DNA from: Polaribacter sp. KT25b | Lineage (GTDB): Bacteria > Bacteroidota > Bacteroidia > Flavobacteriales > Flavobacteriaceae | Assembly: GCF_900105145.1 (NCBI RefSeq) | Contig: NZ_LT629752.1 | Location: 2,018,001 to 2,082,000 of the forward strand | Direction of reading: 5' to 3' | DNA length: 64,000 nucleotides | In this document: positions 20,098-24,576 of the stretch, piece by piece | Layout of the letters: every line of letters starts with the position of its first letter | How positions within the stretch are numbered: position 1 is the first letter of the stretch | Translations under genes and position numbers: made by a program | The notes under the pieces: model-generated | Seen by the model: the letters and a program-made list of their open reading frames with translations, nothing else | The model's database searches: none | Told to the model about the DNA's origin: nothing

Positions 20098-20802
20098 TTA
20101 TAATAAATCTAAACGTTTCATCAATTCAGGTCTATTTGAACGACTAACAGGAACAACGTCTTTTTTAATTAGTACACTATTGTCTTCAATATCTATTATT
20201 TTTTTAACATTTATAATATAAGAACGATGTACTTTTAGAAACAAAGTATCTGGCAATTTTTCTTCAATTTTTTTTAATGTAGAATGTACTACATAATTTT
20301 TTTCTTCTGTTTTAATATTTATGTAATCTCCCTTAGCTTCAATTAAATAGATGGTTGACAAATCAATTTTAATTAACCTTCTGTCTATATTTACATAAAA
20401 ATCATTTTTAGGAGATACTTCTTTTGTATTGCTAATTTGGGTTTGCCTAAGTTGAAGTTTTTCTGCTTTTTTTACAGCTTTTTCAAAACGTGGAAACTCT
20501 ATTGGTTTTAACAAATAGTCTACAATAAAATCGTATTCGAAAGCTTCAATAGCAAATTTAGGATCTGAAGTAGTAAAGATTATTTTTGGTGGATCTTTTA
20601 GTGTTTTTATAAAATCTAAACCACTAAAATTAGGCATATGAATATCTAAAAAAATTAAATCTACATCATTTTCATTCAAGAATTTAATAGCTTCGATTGC
20701 ATTTGTAAATTCTTCTAAAATATCTAATGACTTTATTTCATTGCATAGAGTTCTAACAATAACTCTTGCCATTTGTTCATCATCAATAATAATACAGTTC
20801 AT
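20098..20802 (-). CDS. LytTR-family response regulator
   Basis: 234 residues: receiver domain 1-115 with acidic D7/D8, phospho-acceptor D53 in IFLDIHMPNFSG and Lys in DYLLKPIEF; LytTR DNA-binding domain about 135-234 (IYLIEAKGDYINIKT, FLKVHRSYIINVKKI). It is the last gene of the H-NOX/FIST operon and the only member with a DNA-binding domain, so it is the likely output of the phosphorelay. It starts 5 bases after the Hpt gene. The target promoters are unknown. Confidence 0.93.
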   Translation of the reverse strand: MNCIIIDDEQMARVIVRTLCNEIKSLDILEEFTNAIEAIKFLNENDVDLIFLDIHMPNFSGLDFIKTLKDPPKIIFTTSDPKFAIEAFEYDFIVDYLLKPIEFPRFEKAVKKAEKLQLRQTQISNTKEVSPKNDFYVNIDRRLIKIDLSTIYLIEAKGDYINIKTEEKNYVVHSTLKKIEEKLPDTLFLKVHRSYIINVKKIIDIEDNSVLIKKDVVPVSRSNRPELMKRLDLL

Positions 20803-20807
20803 GGGGG

Positions 20808-21131
20808 TTAAATAGTTTTCAAATATTTTGAAATTGCTATTAAAATTTTATCAAAATCTTTCTCTTCTTTTAAATTTAAAACTTGTTCACGAAGATTATG
20901 TTCAAACTCATTAGCCATTTTGTAACTCTTTTCAAGACCTAAAATACTAAATTTATGTTTAATTCTATGAACATTATCTTCAATTTTTCTAAAATCTTTA
21001 TTTTTAAGACTTTGGTAGTACTCTTCTTTCTCTCCGGGAAACTCACTTTTTATAACATCTATTAAGGTTTTCTTAATAGATTCGTCTCCTCTTGCTAGTT
21101 TATCTATGTAGATTAAATTAGGTTTTTCCAT
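20808..21131 (-). CDS. Histidine phosphotransfer (Hpt) protein
   Basis: A 107-residue, all-helical, single-domain Hpt protein. The phospho-acceptor is H55 in HRIKHKFSILG, which matches the Hpt pattern HxxKxxSxxxG. Hpt proteins shuttle phosphate between receivers. It lies 2 bases after the kinase and 5 before the LytTR regulator, so it probably carries phosphate from the stand-alone receiver (23977-24390) to the LytTR protein. Confidence 0.85.
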   Translation of the reverse strand: MEKPNLIYIDKLARGDESIKKTLIDVIKSEFPGEKEEYYQSLKNKDFRKIEDNVHRIKHKFSILGLEKSYKMANEFEHNLREQVLNLKEEKDFDKILIAISKYLKTI

Positions 21132-21133
21132 AT

Positions 21134-22180
21134 TTATTTTTTTATTGTAAAATAAAAGGTCGTTTCTATATTAGGTATAGATTTTAACCAAATTTCTCCT
21201 TGATATGTTTCTATGATTTTCTTTACAATTGATAAACCAATTCCAGTAGATTTATAATCATTTTCTAATTTTTGAAAAGCAATAAAAATTTTATCAAAAT
21301 ACTTTTGTTCAATCCCTTTTCCATTATCTGTTATAGAAAATTGCCAATATTTATTTTTGTCTTCAAATCTAATCTCTACAAAACCTTTACTCTTTTTATC
21401 ATTAAATTTTACAGCATTATTAATTAAATTATAAAAAAGCAACTCTAATCTATGTTGATCTCCTTTTATTCTGGGTAAATCACTAGTTACTAAAACATCA
21501 ACATCATTAGGGTTATCTATAGTAACTAAAACATCTTCTATTAAAAGATTTAAATCGATATCATAAAGAGCCATTTTTGTTTTACCAATTGTAGAATATT
21601 CTAAAATACCTTGAATTAAGGTGTCCATTTTTTCTACATTTTCTCTAATTAAATCTACAACTTCACTACCAGACTCACCTAAAACATCAGAAAAATCATC
21701 CTTAATCCAAACTGTTAATGCATCTATACTTTGTAATGGCGATTTTAAATCATGAGAAACCATATGAGCATATTCATTTAATTCTTGATTTTGACGCTCT
21801 AAATCTAGTACAAGTTTATCTTTTAGTTTGTTTATTTCTATAATTTCTTTAGTTTGAATTTCAATAAAATCTACTAATTCTAAAGAATCTTGTCCTTCTA
21901 AATTATTATCACCTTTTAAGTTATAAAACTTTAAAGTATTAATTACACTATTAAGTTTTTCTATAATTTCTTTTTGTGATTCTGATTCTTCTCTTAATTG
22001 TTTATTAGAATTAAAAAGTTCTTCAGAACTAATAGAAGCTGCTCTTTGAAGCATCGTAAACTGCTCACCTGATGTATTATAAGATTTATTTATTGCATCT
22101 AAAAAATCTTGCATATCTTTATTAGATTGCAAATTTTTAGGTAAATATTTTCTTATTTGTCTTTTTAAAAGTGGATTCAT
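21134..22180 (-). CDS. Soluble sensor histidine kinase with NosP/H-NOX-associated N-terminal helix
   Basis: 348 residues with no membrane segment. The N-terminal part (about 4-64: LLKRQIRKYLPKNL, then QFTMLQRAASISSEELFNSN) resembles the helical region found at the start of many hybrid kinases encoded beside FIST proteins. A coiled coil follows (about 105-135), then HisKA with H143 in YAHMVSHDLKSPLQS and HATPase with N box, DNGKGIEQKYFDKIF and TGIGLSIVKKI. It lacks its own receiver, so phosphate must go to a separate protein. Its ATG overlaps the FIST gene stop by one base, a sign of coupled partners. Regulation by the FIST and/or H-NOX proteins is inferred. Confidence 0.9.
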   Translation of the reverse strand: MNPLLKRQIRKYLPKNLQSNKDMQDFLDAINKSYNTSGEQFTMLQRAASISSEELFNSNKQLREESESQKEIIEKLNSVINTLKFYNLKGDNNLEGQDSLELVDFIEIQTKEIIEINKLKDKLVLDLERQNQELNEYAHMVSHDLKSPLQSIDALTVWIKDDFSDVLGESGSEVVDLIRENVEKMDTLIQGILEYSTIGKTKMALYDIDLNLLIEDVLVTIDNPNDVDVLVTSDLPRIKGDQHRLELLFYNLINNAVKFNDKKSKGFVEIRFEDKNKYWQFSITDNGKGIEQKYFDKIFIAFQKLENDYKSTGIGLSIVKKIIETYQGEIWLKSIPNIETTFYFTIKK

Positions 22181-23319
22181 TATTCACTTATTAGCGTAAT
22201 TGCCATTGTTTGATTGTGTAAATGACAGTTCATTTCTCCATTAAAAGGAGCAATTTCTCCATAAGAATAAAAACCGGAAATTGTAGTGTCTTTACCAACT
22301 ACTTCCATTACTTCTTCTATCTCTTCTTCTACTCTTTGATCTAAAACTAATTTTCTACCAATACAGCTTATTAAAATTGCTAATTCTGGTTTACTTTTTC
22401 TCAATTCTAATGCTTGTGCTGCTCCTAATTCTGCAGCATTTACAATACTATCTACATTAGTCATCATTAATTGAACTTTAGAATTCTCAAAAATATCACC
22501 AGCCAAAATCATAGAATTTTCTTCTTCATTAATGTTTAAAATAGTTCTTACAATAGATTTTTTTTCATGCTTAGATTTAACTTTCATAGGATATAATAAA
22601 GCTGCTCCCGGTAATTCTTTAGATTTTTCTCCTAAATAAGTTTTATATAAATCTAAAGCAGGTTTTCCATCTAATTCAAATAATATATTATCCTTAGATT
22701 TTGTAACTATTCTTTCTGGCCCAAAAGGAATCCAACCTCCTTTTGTAGCAAATGAAACTTCTAGTGTTTCTCCATAAAAACCAATTGCTACTATTTTTCC
22801 TTCTTTTGGGTTTTCGTTATATGAACATAAAGTGGTTTCAAACCTTGCAGCATCACCACATAAAGCACCTGTAATTATTAAGTTATCGTCTGTTGCAGCA
22901 TTCATCCCTTTAGTAAGTTGACTACCGTTAGTAAAACTTCCATCAGAAACAACAAAAACATATTTTAAACCTTCTTTTGGCAATTGCTCTATTAGTTCTT
23001 TACCAGATTTAAAACTATTTATTTCTACATTAGAATTTAAAACATTTGCTGTTTTAATTATAAATGAACTTCTTTCAAATTCTATTGCAGTAATAGTAAT
23101 ACTTTCATCATCTACAGATTCTGATGTTATGTCTCCAGAAGTTGATCCAAAAATAATTTCACCATCTTCAAAAATATCTCTAATTTCATTATAAATATTT
23201 TTTTCTTGCAGCATGTATCTATTACCAAAAACCAAAACTAATGGTTTTTTTAGAGTACATTGTTTACTTAAATATTTAAATTTATTTGTCCCCCTTTTTT
23301 TTAGTTGTACTGTTTTCAT
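22180..23319 (-). CDS. FIST domain sensory protein (NosP-like)
   Basis: 379 residues with FIST_N (about 20-220: VLVFGNRYMLQEKNIYNEI, GEIIFGSTSGDITSE, FVVSDGSFTNGSQL) and FIST_C (about 225-375: ALDLYKTYLGEKSKELPGAA, ILISCIGRKLVL, SGFYSYGEIAP). FIST proteins are cytoplasmic sensors; some, called NosP, bind heme and nitric oxide and control a co-encoded kinase. Here it is translationally coupled to a kinase, exactly that arrangement. Whether this one binds heme cannot be told from sequence. Confidence 0.88.
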   Translation of the reverse strand: MKTVQLKKRGTNKFKYLSKQCTLKKPLVLVFGNRYMLQEKNIYNEIRDIFEDGEIIFGSTSGDITSESVDDESITITAIEFERSSFIIKTANVLNSNVEINSFKSGKELIEQLPKEGLKYVFVVSDGSFTNGSQLTKGMNAATDDNLIITGALCGDAARFETTLCSYNENPKEGKIVAIGFYGETLEVSFATKGGWIPFGPERIVTKSKDNILFELDGKPALDLYKTYLGEKSKELPGAALLYPMKVKSKHEKKSIVRTILNINEEENSMILAGDIFENSKVQLMMTNVDSIVNAAELGAAQALELRKSKPELAILISCIGRKLVLDQRVEEEIEEVMEVVGKDTTISGFYSYGEIAPFNGEMNCHLHNQTMAITLISE

Positions 23320-23429
23320 TTATTTATTCTCTTAAGGGGACTCTTTAAATTATAATATCTATATTATATTTCTTCTTAATTGCTAAATTTACAAAATTTA
23401 ACAATTATTAAAGTAATATTTAGTAAGTT

Positions 23430-23975
23430 TTAAATTGCTTTTTTTTGGATGTTAAATCTTACCTCTGTACCAACTTCTTTTATTTTTTCTAATTTTATAA
23501 TGGCTTCAGAATTAAAATGTTCAAATGTTTTATTCATTAAACCTAAACCAAAATAGTGCATTGCTCTACTAGATTTATAGATTAAAGTTAACGAATTTAC
23601 ATTCTTTTCTTCAACAATAAATGTTGGTAAATCTGCGTCTGGGTAAATTTTTCTAACTTCTATGTGAATATGATTTTCTATAGATGAAATCATATCTATA
23701 GGTTCTTTATAAGATTCAATAATATCTGGATAACTGTTTTTTAATACTGCAAAAAAATGTTCTCCATAAACTAATAATAAATTATCGATTGAAATTTTTG
23801 TGTTAATACTTAAATTTTTAAGTAAACTAAGCATTTCGGAAAAACTGTAAGTACCAATAGTTGTATAAATGCCTTCTGAAGTTAAATTTGATTGAGAAAT
23901 AATTGTATCAACCATTTCTAACCCAAATTTATCTTCAACCAAATCTAAAAATTCAGTAAATACAATTCCTTTCAT
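23430..23975 (-). CDS. H-NOX heme nitric-oxide-binding sensor
   Basis: A 181-residue stand-alone H-NOX (HNOB) protein. The heme-propionate motif YxSxR is present as YKSSR (Y133, S135, R137), and H104 in NHIHIEVRKIYPDA aligns with the proximal heme-ligand histidine. H-NOX proteins without a distal Tyr bind NO but not oxygen and usually control a neighbouring kinase or cyclase. It starts one base after the receiver gene stop and is followed, after a 110-base gap (23320-23429, no gene seen), by the FIST gene. Confidence 0.9.
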   Translation of the reverse strand: MKGIVFTEFLDLVEDKFGLEMVDTIISQSNLTSEGIYTTIGTYSFSEMLSLLKNLSINTKISIDNLLLVYGEHFFAVLKNSYPDIIESYKEPIDMISSIENHIHIEVRKIYPDADLPTFIVEEKNVNSLTLIYKSSRAMHYFGLGLMNKTFEHFNSEAIIKLEKIKEVGTEVRFNIQKKAI

Positions 23976-23976
23976 T

Positions 23977-24390
23977 TTAAGATTTAATCAATTCATTAAC
24001 GCTCCAATAAGATAAAACTATTTCAATTTTCTTAACGTAATCTTCATATTTTAATGGTTTTAAAATATAGCCAGACATACCAGTTCTATAACATTCAAGT
24101 AAATCTTTTTGATTGCTAGAAGTGGTTAAAATTATGGTAGGAATATGTTTTAAATCATCATTAGCTTTTAAAATTCTAAGAAATTCTATACCATTTATTT
24201 TAGGCATATTTAAATCTAATAAAATTATATCTGGAATATTAGATCTATTGTCTAAGAAATTTAATGCTTCTTCGCCATTTTTAGCTTCATACATTATGTG
24301 ATTTAATTTTAATAACGAAAGAGTTCTTTTCATTTTCATTATTTCAATCAAATTATCTTCAACCAATAAAATCTTTAAACTTTTCTCCAT
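23977..24390 (-). CDS. Stand-alone CheY-like response regulator
   Basis: 137 residues, one receiver domain and no output. Acidic residues in LLVEDN, phospho-acceptor D59 in ILLDLNMPKING, Thr/Ser in LTTSSNQ and Lys in YILKPLKYEDY are all present. The frame extends to a TTG at 24411, but ATG at 24390 (MEKSLKILLVEDN) is the typical start. It is the first gene of the operon. It is the natural first acceptor of phosphate from the operon's kinase, which has no receiver of its own. 24391-24576 is AT-rich spacer with a possible weak promoter (TATTTTG on the minus strand). Confidence 0.88.
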   Translation of the reverse strand: MEKSLKILLVEDNLIEIMKMKRTLSLLKLNHIMYEAKNGEEALNFLDNRSNIPDIILLDLNMPKINGIEFLRILKANDDLKHIPTIILTTSSNQKDLLECYRTGMSGYILKPLKYEDYVKKIEIVLSYWSVNELIKS

Positions 24391-24576
24391 CCCATTTATT
24401 TTTTTAAACAATTTTGGTATTACAAAATAAGTTTAAAGAAAAACAAATTTTGCTAAAGAATGATAACAGGTATTATTGTGGGGTTAAAATGCAGATTACT
24501 GTCGATGAACTGTATTTTTTACTTAAAAAAAAGATTTGAATGTTTTTATAAAAAATATAATTTTGAAGAGATAAAT

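Follow-up and report, generated by a model that had tools for sequence, protein, structure and literature searches.

A 64,000-nucleotide stretch of the Polaribacter sp. KT25b genome (contig NZ_LT629752.1, positions 2,018,001 to 2,082,000), hereafter the window, carries on its minus strand a six-gene operon (20098-24390) that encodes an H-NOX protein, a FIST protein and the components of a His-Asp-His-Asp phosphorelay. Judged by gene content, this operon is a reduced copy of a conserved flavobacterial two-sensor operon from which HK1, the histidine kinase gene that follows H-NOX in relatives, is gone. The same genome holds a second operon of this kind, and we consider it moderately probable that the two, here called operon A (the window operon) and operon B, act as one network in which the one kinase left for the window H-NOX to address would be HK1b, the HK1 of copy B, in trans.

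The six open reading frames of operon A lie in the order receiver, H-NOX, FIST, HK2, Hpt and LytTR with spacings of +1, +110, -1, +2 and +5 bases, all on the minus strand. A stand-alone receiver (23977-24390, D59; Response_reg 83.1 bits, above cut-off) comes first, as it does in relatives, and is followed by an H-NOX of 181 amino acids (23430-23975; G71, H104 and YKSSR at 133-137; HNOB 131.5 bits, cut-off 25.5). Beyond a 110-base gap (23320-23429), which is the place of HK1 in relatives, lie a FIST/FIST_C protein of 379 amino acids (22180-23319; FIST 136.2 and FIST_C 116.7 bits, both above cut-off) and the soluble histidine kinase HK2 (21134-22180, H143; HisKA 36.9 and HATPase_c 80.9 bits, above cut-off), whose start shares one base with the FIST stop. 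An Hpt protein (20808-21131, H55; PF01627 23.3 bits against a cut-off of 24.6) has its His in an HxxK context, and H55, K58, H59, K60, S62 and G65 are invariant in an alignment of 25 Hpt proteins out of 76 available. The last gene encodes a LytTR response regulator (20098-20802, D53; LytTR 74.8 and Response_reg 65.9 bits, both above cut-off). An open reading frame check and Pfam scans thus bear out the six genes, their positions, the single strand and the spacing of at most 110 bases given by a first-pass annotation of this DNA, and every residue that it named (D59, H104, YKSSR, H143, H55 and D53) was found as given. Its description of the relay as complete holds for the four phospho-sites H143, D59, H55 and D53, which are all encoded, but of the two kinases in the canonical operon the one for H-NOX has been lost here.

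The canonical arrangement was established from H-NOX relatives at the best 80 of 184 loci, which have flavobacterial titles throughout. An HK1 gene stands directly after H-NOX in 79 of the 80, mostly with a one-base overlap, and the exception, L080, stops less than 60 bases past the H-NOX gene. The commonest order, receiver, H-NOX, HK1, FIST, HK2, Hpt, LytTR, is exact in 47/80 loci and reaches 53/80 when cut or altered variants are counted, and HK2 follows FIST in all 47 exact operons. FIST comes after HK1 in 58 loci (5 of them with a divergent FIST of ~27% identity) and is missing from the H-NOX operon in 21, L080 being uninformative on this point. Since HK1 trails H-NOX in 79/80 loci and FIST precedes HK2 in relatives, each sensor has its own kinase behind it, and the window has lost HK1. 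The first-pass annotation had remarked that it is FIST, rather than H-NOX, to which the kinase is coupled; the one-base overlap is real, but the coupling arises from the loss of HK1 and not from design. The HK1 frame is broken or late-starting in L013, L029 and L052. We had considered HK1 as a hybrid kinase and rejected this, as the three HK1 proteins scanned for domains (L003, L007, L083) contain PAS or GAF, HisKA and HATPase and lack a receiver. As a separate observation, the FIST slot of L011, L034, L053, L079 and L082 is occupied by a divergent FIST (~27% identity) and a diverged HK2, an apparent in-place sensor swap.

In the ancestral operon, H-NOX would control HK1 and FIST would control HK2, presumably with nitric oxide (NO) as the signal, and both kinases would feed the stand-alone receiver, Hpt and the LytTR regulator. 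A tblastn search of the window gap found no HK1 relic (best match 11 residues, E 0.13). The corresponding gap of a relative, G062, contains a weak HK1 relic on the correct strand and in the correct order (29 residues, 52%, E 0.15), with an unrelated query reaching E 0.067 in the same gap.

The one other H-NOX of the window genome (G000) lies ~65 kb from operon A, in an operon B made up of receiver, H-NOX, HK1 and LytTR (L083, G000:C1:2097500-2117400). Its neighbours read by eye as cbb3 oxidase (cco) and hemN-like genes, and the one that was scanned is DsbD_2, which suggests a respiratory or oxygen/NO context for copy B. Seven relatives have a B-like operon beside the same neighbour genes (L092, L094, L096, L106, L107, L109 and L150); H-NOX is missing from it in L106, L107 and L150 and fragmentary in L094. 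A division into window-type and B-type groups agrees with the LytTR tree, with modest support. At L020 (1242-11787) a FIST operon is followed directly by an H-NOX operon and then by a DUF4114-family gene, in tandem, and this arrangement likely represents an intermediate of tandem duplication or operon split.

Window genome losses in the two operons are complementary: H-NOX is in both, HK1 only in B and Hpt only in A. We propose that this lineage came to hold a second, B-type copy, and that HK1 was lost from A and Hpt from B, so that the two operons would act as one network. The window Hpt would then serve copy B, and the window H-NOX, if still signalling, could do so only to HK1b. The trans reading comes from three relatives that split H-NOX (A) from HK1 (B). 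G016 has H-NOX and Hpt only in A and HK1 only in B; in G032, H-NOX is confined to A, with N masking part of it, and HK1 to B; and G062 has H-NOX, FIST and HK2 only in A and HK1, Hpt and LytTR only in B. The HK1-less H-NOX of operon A is the sole H-NOX match in each of these genomes, and their B operons have HK1 without H-NOX. All four genomes with an HK1-less H-NOX, the window genome included, also have HK1b. That of G062 is full length (68%) and was anticipated from the short H-NOX-FIST gap, though this was not recorded before the search; in seven other genomes searched alongside it, five with canonical H-NOX-FIST spacing, no HK1b was found outside the operon at E 1e-60. An initial description of the G032 H-NOX as a decayed copy was withdrawn, the stretch containing a run of N.

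Other genomes divide the components differently. G145 has H-NOX and an HK1 without its usual start in A, and HK1 and Hpt without H-NOX in B. H-NOX and HK1 are in B and Hpt in A in G128, G004, G096 and G047, while G042 and G024 have H-NOX and HK1 in B, Hpt in both and LytTR in A. Among 11 split genomes Hpt is confined to A or to B in 9, and neither Hpt nor LytTR is lost from both operons in any. One double loss of H-NOX, Hpt or LytTR was counted, compared with 4.2 expected (permutation P 0.0075). This permutation left out G032, because of the contig end in copy B; G078, which has a different kind of second locus and an H-NOX in two frames; G041, which is 76% complete and yielded no copy B; and other-clade genomes with FIST and H-NOX apart.

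Several observations weigh against reading the two operons as a single circuit. The permutation ignores shared descent, and single components do not pass alone (H-NOX 0.09, Hpt 0.11, LytTR 0.65). The G032 genome is 75% complete, and a contig end truncates copy B there. G009 keeps HK1b though H-NOX has been lost from both operons, with fragments remaining in B; its Hpt lies in A and its LytTR in B. Copy B of the window genome carries an H-NOX of its own, and therefore trans action of the window H-NOX is not needed there. Finally, the genome has a third Hpt-LytTR pair (L151, G000:C1:3550316-3551348; 37% and 61% identical), a third Hpt being present in 13/14 genomes searched (not in G032) and a third LytTR in 11/14 at E 1e-60. 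The L151 pair has no sensor gene directly adjacent, and UDP-glucose-dehydrogenase-like genes lie nearby.

Whether the window H-NOX still signals bears directly on this proposal. The protein is an HNOB-family member for which heme and NO binding is predicted: it contains the heme-pocket His (H104) and the YxSxR motif (Y133-K-S135-S-R137), and H102 is there as well. Its closest solved chains are 6bde and 6bdd, and it is 76% identical to the Kordia algicida H-NOX of solved structure. The window H-NOX could nevertheless be a redundant copy that is being lost, with copy B supplying the function and a FIST-only relay remaining, and we regard this as a serious possibility that falls short of probable. 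It has the longest ingroup branch (0.36 against a median of 0.085, in a tree whose bootstrap is not settled), and relative-rate tests give a chi-square of 9.3-14.2 against three canonical copies (L018, L033 and L008). Moreover, operon A of the nearest relative, G128, whose LytTR is 95% identical to that of the window, holds a decayed H-NOX at the same place (213 nt, 69%, E 4e-19; best shuffle 6e-4), and eight relatives have no H-NOX at this position (G004, G096, G047, G042, G024, G009, G078 and G041). The window H-NOX may thus be on its way out. This is contrasted by an intact frame with the motif residues retained and by a ratio of nonsynonymous to synonymous substitution (dN/dS) of ~0.11-0.21 in eleven pairs, a twelfth being saturated. 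The relative rate is also not significant against L083, L084 and L088 (chi-square 2.8-3.8). The H-NOX of L029 is fast too (chi-square 5.1 and 11.6) although FIST and a shortened HK1 are kept there, so speed need not mean decay. Furthermore, G016, G032 and G062 retain the HK1-less H-NOX as their sole copy.

Rather than signalling to HK1b, the window H-NOX might have been rewired to HK2 after HK1 was lost, so that one kinase integrates H-NOX and FIST. HK2 is the sole kinase remaining in operon A, and the kinase cores of HK1b and HK2 are related (39-46%). We nonetheless consider rewiring unlikely, as HK1b persists in each of the four genomes with an HK1-less H-NOX, HK2 invariably accompanies FIST in the exact full operons, and a promoter possibly separates H-NOX from FIST-HK2. 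The first-pass annotation had pointed to a promoter in the 110-base gap as evidence against H-NOX sharing a transcript with the rest. We did find a candidate element there, TGTAAATTT (23385-23393, minus strand), 74 bases before the FIST start. The window and 6 of 13 relatives examined have it at -72 to -85 relative to FIST; it was not seen in the other 7. Because it recurs at this position, it is possible to likely that FIST has a promoter of its own, and read-through from upstream may also reach FIST. A scan with the sigma-70 consensus was uninformative (48 sites against 44.9 in shuffles).

The FIST protein was previously called NosP-like. FIST and FIST_C domains are both present, but the NosP model (NCBIfam NF041558) gives 59.4 bits, far under its equivalog cut-off of 450, and for this reason we do not file the protein as NosP. 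No heme ligand could be assigned from conservation, and no solved-structure relative was found by sequence profile, an absence that carries no weight as evidence. For a structure model of the protein (m9e3958ae07dc, 22180-23319; predicted local distance difference test score 86), VIA-align ranks FBXO22 FIST chains first and Toblerone-fold enzymes next; the model resembles the Toblerone fold known from cyanuric acid hydrolase and chorismatase. A FIST protein that is not NosP may sense something other than NO, in which case the operon would join an NO input with a different signal. This is quite conceivable, though we lean somewhat against it: the order of FIST followed by a soluble kinase without a sensor domain matches NosP-NosK as described in PMC12570481, and the gene is co-located with H-NOX.

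The output of the operon is expected to be transcriptional. A LytTR-type operator of two direct half-sites with a 21-bp offset, the second half weak, lies upstream of the receiver gene (24475-24513, minus strand, 17.1 bits). The 39-bp motif was trained on 80 regions upstream of receiver genes from 79 loci (L020 gives two, L005 none); 77 of these score at least 12 bits, the maximum of 400 shuffles being 1.0. Among 20 regions outside the training set, 11 reach 12 bits and 16 beat the best shuffle, the four below it being L083 (the genome's own copy B), L085 (contig end), L088 and L099. The window site was outside the training set of the position weight matrix, but its score is not wholly independent because the first probe was derived from this same site. 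It is also the best own-genome match of model R1, a model that includes it. In several members of the window clade the second half-site of operon A has drifted to ATTTTAAC, whereas some B operons keep TCTA-type repeats, and copies A and B may be insulating their operators from each other.

Outside the operon promoter, the receiver-trained motif precedes 41 of 63 DUF4114-family genes, usually at a distance of 49-51 or 69-79 bases from the start codon; among the other genes of these loci, 30 of 719 have it. DUF4114-family genes lie downstream of the operon in 61/80 loci, and both scanned members have DUF4114 and a type IX secretion system (T9SS) sorting domain. The earlier claim that two sensor families and relay parts share one operon with a DNA-binding rather than a cyclic di-GMP output is therefore supported, with a LytTR-type operator at the operon promoter and, in relatives, at the gene for a secreted protein. 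We propose that LytTR binds the direct repeats with the 21-bp offset, both at the promoter of its own operon and, in many relatives, ahead of the gene for the T9SS-secreted DUF4114 protein, by which gas signals would become surface-gene transcription. On motif evidence the LytTR relay probably controls surface-protein genes.

The window genome itself fits this picture less well. Its own copy-B promoter scores -9.3 bits, and no strong second operator was found in the genome among 150 scored of 8,340 first-look candidates, the best new matches being weak (E 0.003-0.03). One of these (E 0.01) stands 74 bases ahead of a large adhesin-like gene of the pAdhesive_15 type (L144, G000:C1:1025500-1031000); others fall across the end of a carbamoyl-phosphate-synthase-like gene (one) and within genes (two). 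The window locus has no DUF4114-family gene downstream of the operon. A DUF4114 target elsewhere in the genome was sought and rejected, only two weak DUF4114 matches being present, both in proteins that are mainly DUF4842. One DUF4842 gene has a weak operator match ~99 bases upstream on the same strand (434604-434630, 12.8 bits, E 0.58) and the other a weak match on the opposite strand; both are leads only.

The first-pass annotation proposed co-occurrence of HNOB and FIST genes in Bacteroidota as a check. Among 296 Bacteroidota genomes HNOB is found in 22, FIST in 70 and both in 14. In 8 of these 14 the two genes lie within 4 kb on one strand, which is not chance; 7 belong to the family of the window genome, which is itself included, and 1 (G301) to another. 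The neighbouring pairs were picked out by hand from the survey, and the loci of G079, G269, G333, G361 and G400, five of the 14, lay outside the gene-order comparison. All five neighbouring pairs examined in full (L112-L116) have the seven-gene order, even with an H-NOX 27-28% identical to that of the window. Within the genus (146 genomes), an H-NOX match is present in 87 and a FIST match in 70, 12 of which were left out of the tally as fragmentary or less than 50% identical. That leaves 58 genomes with a close FIST, 55 of which also carry an H-NOX: in 34 FIST follows H-NOX at 1.2-2.5 kb, with room for HK1; in 4 the distance is under 450 bases (G000, G016, G032 and G062); in 5 FIST is upstream; and in 12 the genes are apart or on separate contigs.

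Collectively, these data lead us to propose, tentatively, a cyclic di-GMP-independent pathway from NO to surface genes that would be common in marine Flavobacteriaceae. H-NOX and FIST would each drive their own kinase into an Hpt-LytTR relay with direct control over secreted T9SS proteins, and in one genus the parts would be split between two operons yet remain one circuit, in which H-NOX would act in trans on a kinase from the other locus. The H-NOX and NosP pathways known so far act mostly via cyclic di-GMP enzymes, and this type of operon offers a transcriptional route to surface genes in common marine bacteria. The predicted operator and its target are open to direct test, and relatives with complementary losses are natural experiments on an H-NOX that serves a kinase encoded elsewhere.

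The surroundings of the operon show further regularities. An upstream DUF6495 gene is common to the window and eight Polaribacter loci (L006, L018, L020, L021, L029, L043, L049 and L060). At 41/80 loci (e.g. L019:16178-18364) a convergent TPR gene lies downstream, its C-terminal part barrel-like by eye, with 7 operator matches near it; beyond it are STAS-like genes (16 loci, below cut-off) and flippase-like genes (7 loci, by eye). This neighbourhood is possibly an exopolysaccharide cluster.

The combination in operon A had been described as not well described. A literature search found no paper on the arrangement with LytTR output, most subscription journals being outside its coverage, but parts of it are in print. 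A neighbourhood survey reports FIST genes near hnox in one group, whose taxa its text leaves unnamed (PMC8738867). An H-NOX from a full operon has a solved structure: 6bdd and the Kordia algicida protein of L007 agree at every one of 179 residues, and PMC7356049 uses 6BDD and cites work on the Kordia H-NOX. That H-NOX (6bdd, 6bde), encoded in the full operon form, has HK1 adjacent and Ala at the hinge position, whereas the window has no HK1 and Gly71.

Cyclic di-GMP pathways of H-NOX and NosP are described in PMC8846402 and PMC12570481. The HnoX-HnoK-HnoB/HnoD network of Shewanella oneidensis and Vibrio cholerae, with the transcription factor HnoC in S. oneidensis, resembles operon A in having a stand-alone H-NOX that controls a kinase and a transcriptional feedback arm (PMC8846402, PMC8738867). 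Its main output is a cyclic di-GMP phosphodiesterase, while the window operon instead has FIST, LytTR and a lone receiver with Hpt. The NosP-NahK/NosK-NarR/NosR systems likewise encode a FIST protein with a soluble kinase without a sensor domain (PMC12570481), but their response regulator is of the cyclic di-GMP type and the window FIST falls outside the NosP model. V. cholerae H-NOX and NosP are two heme NO sensors in one signalling web of intersecting pathways (PMC8738867); the pathways there are separate, with cyclic di-GMP and quorum-sensing outputs, whereas the window has one operon and a LytTR output. Lastly, LytTR regulators are reported on paired direct 9-bp repeats 10-13 bp apart (PMC11347149), a form that the window motif with its 21-bp offset fits, although the repeat sequence and the target genes differ.

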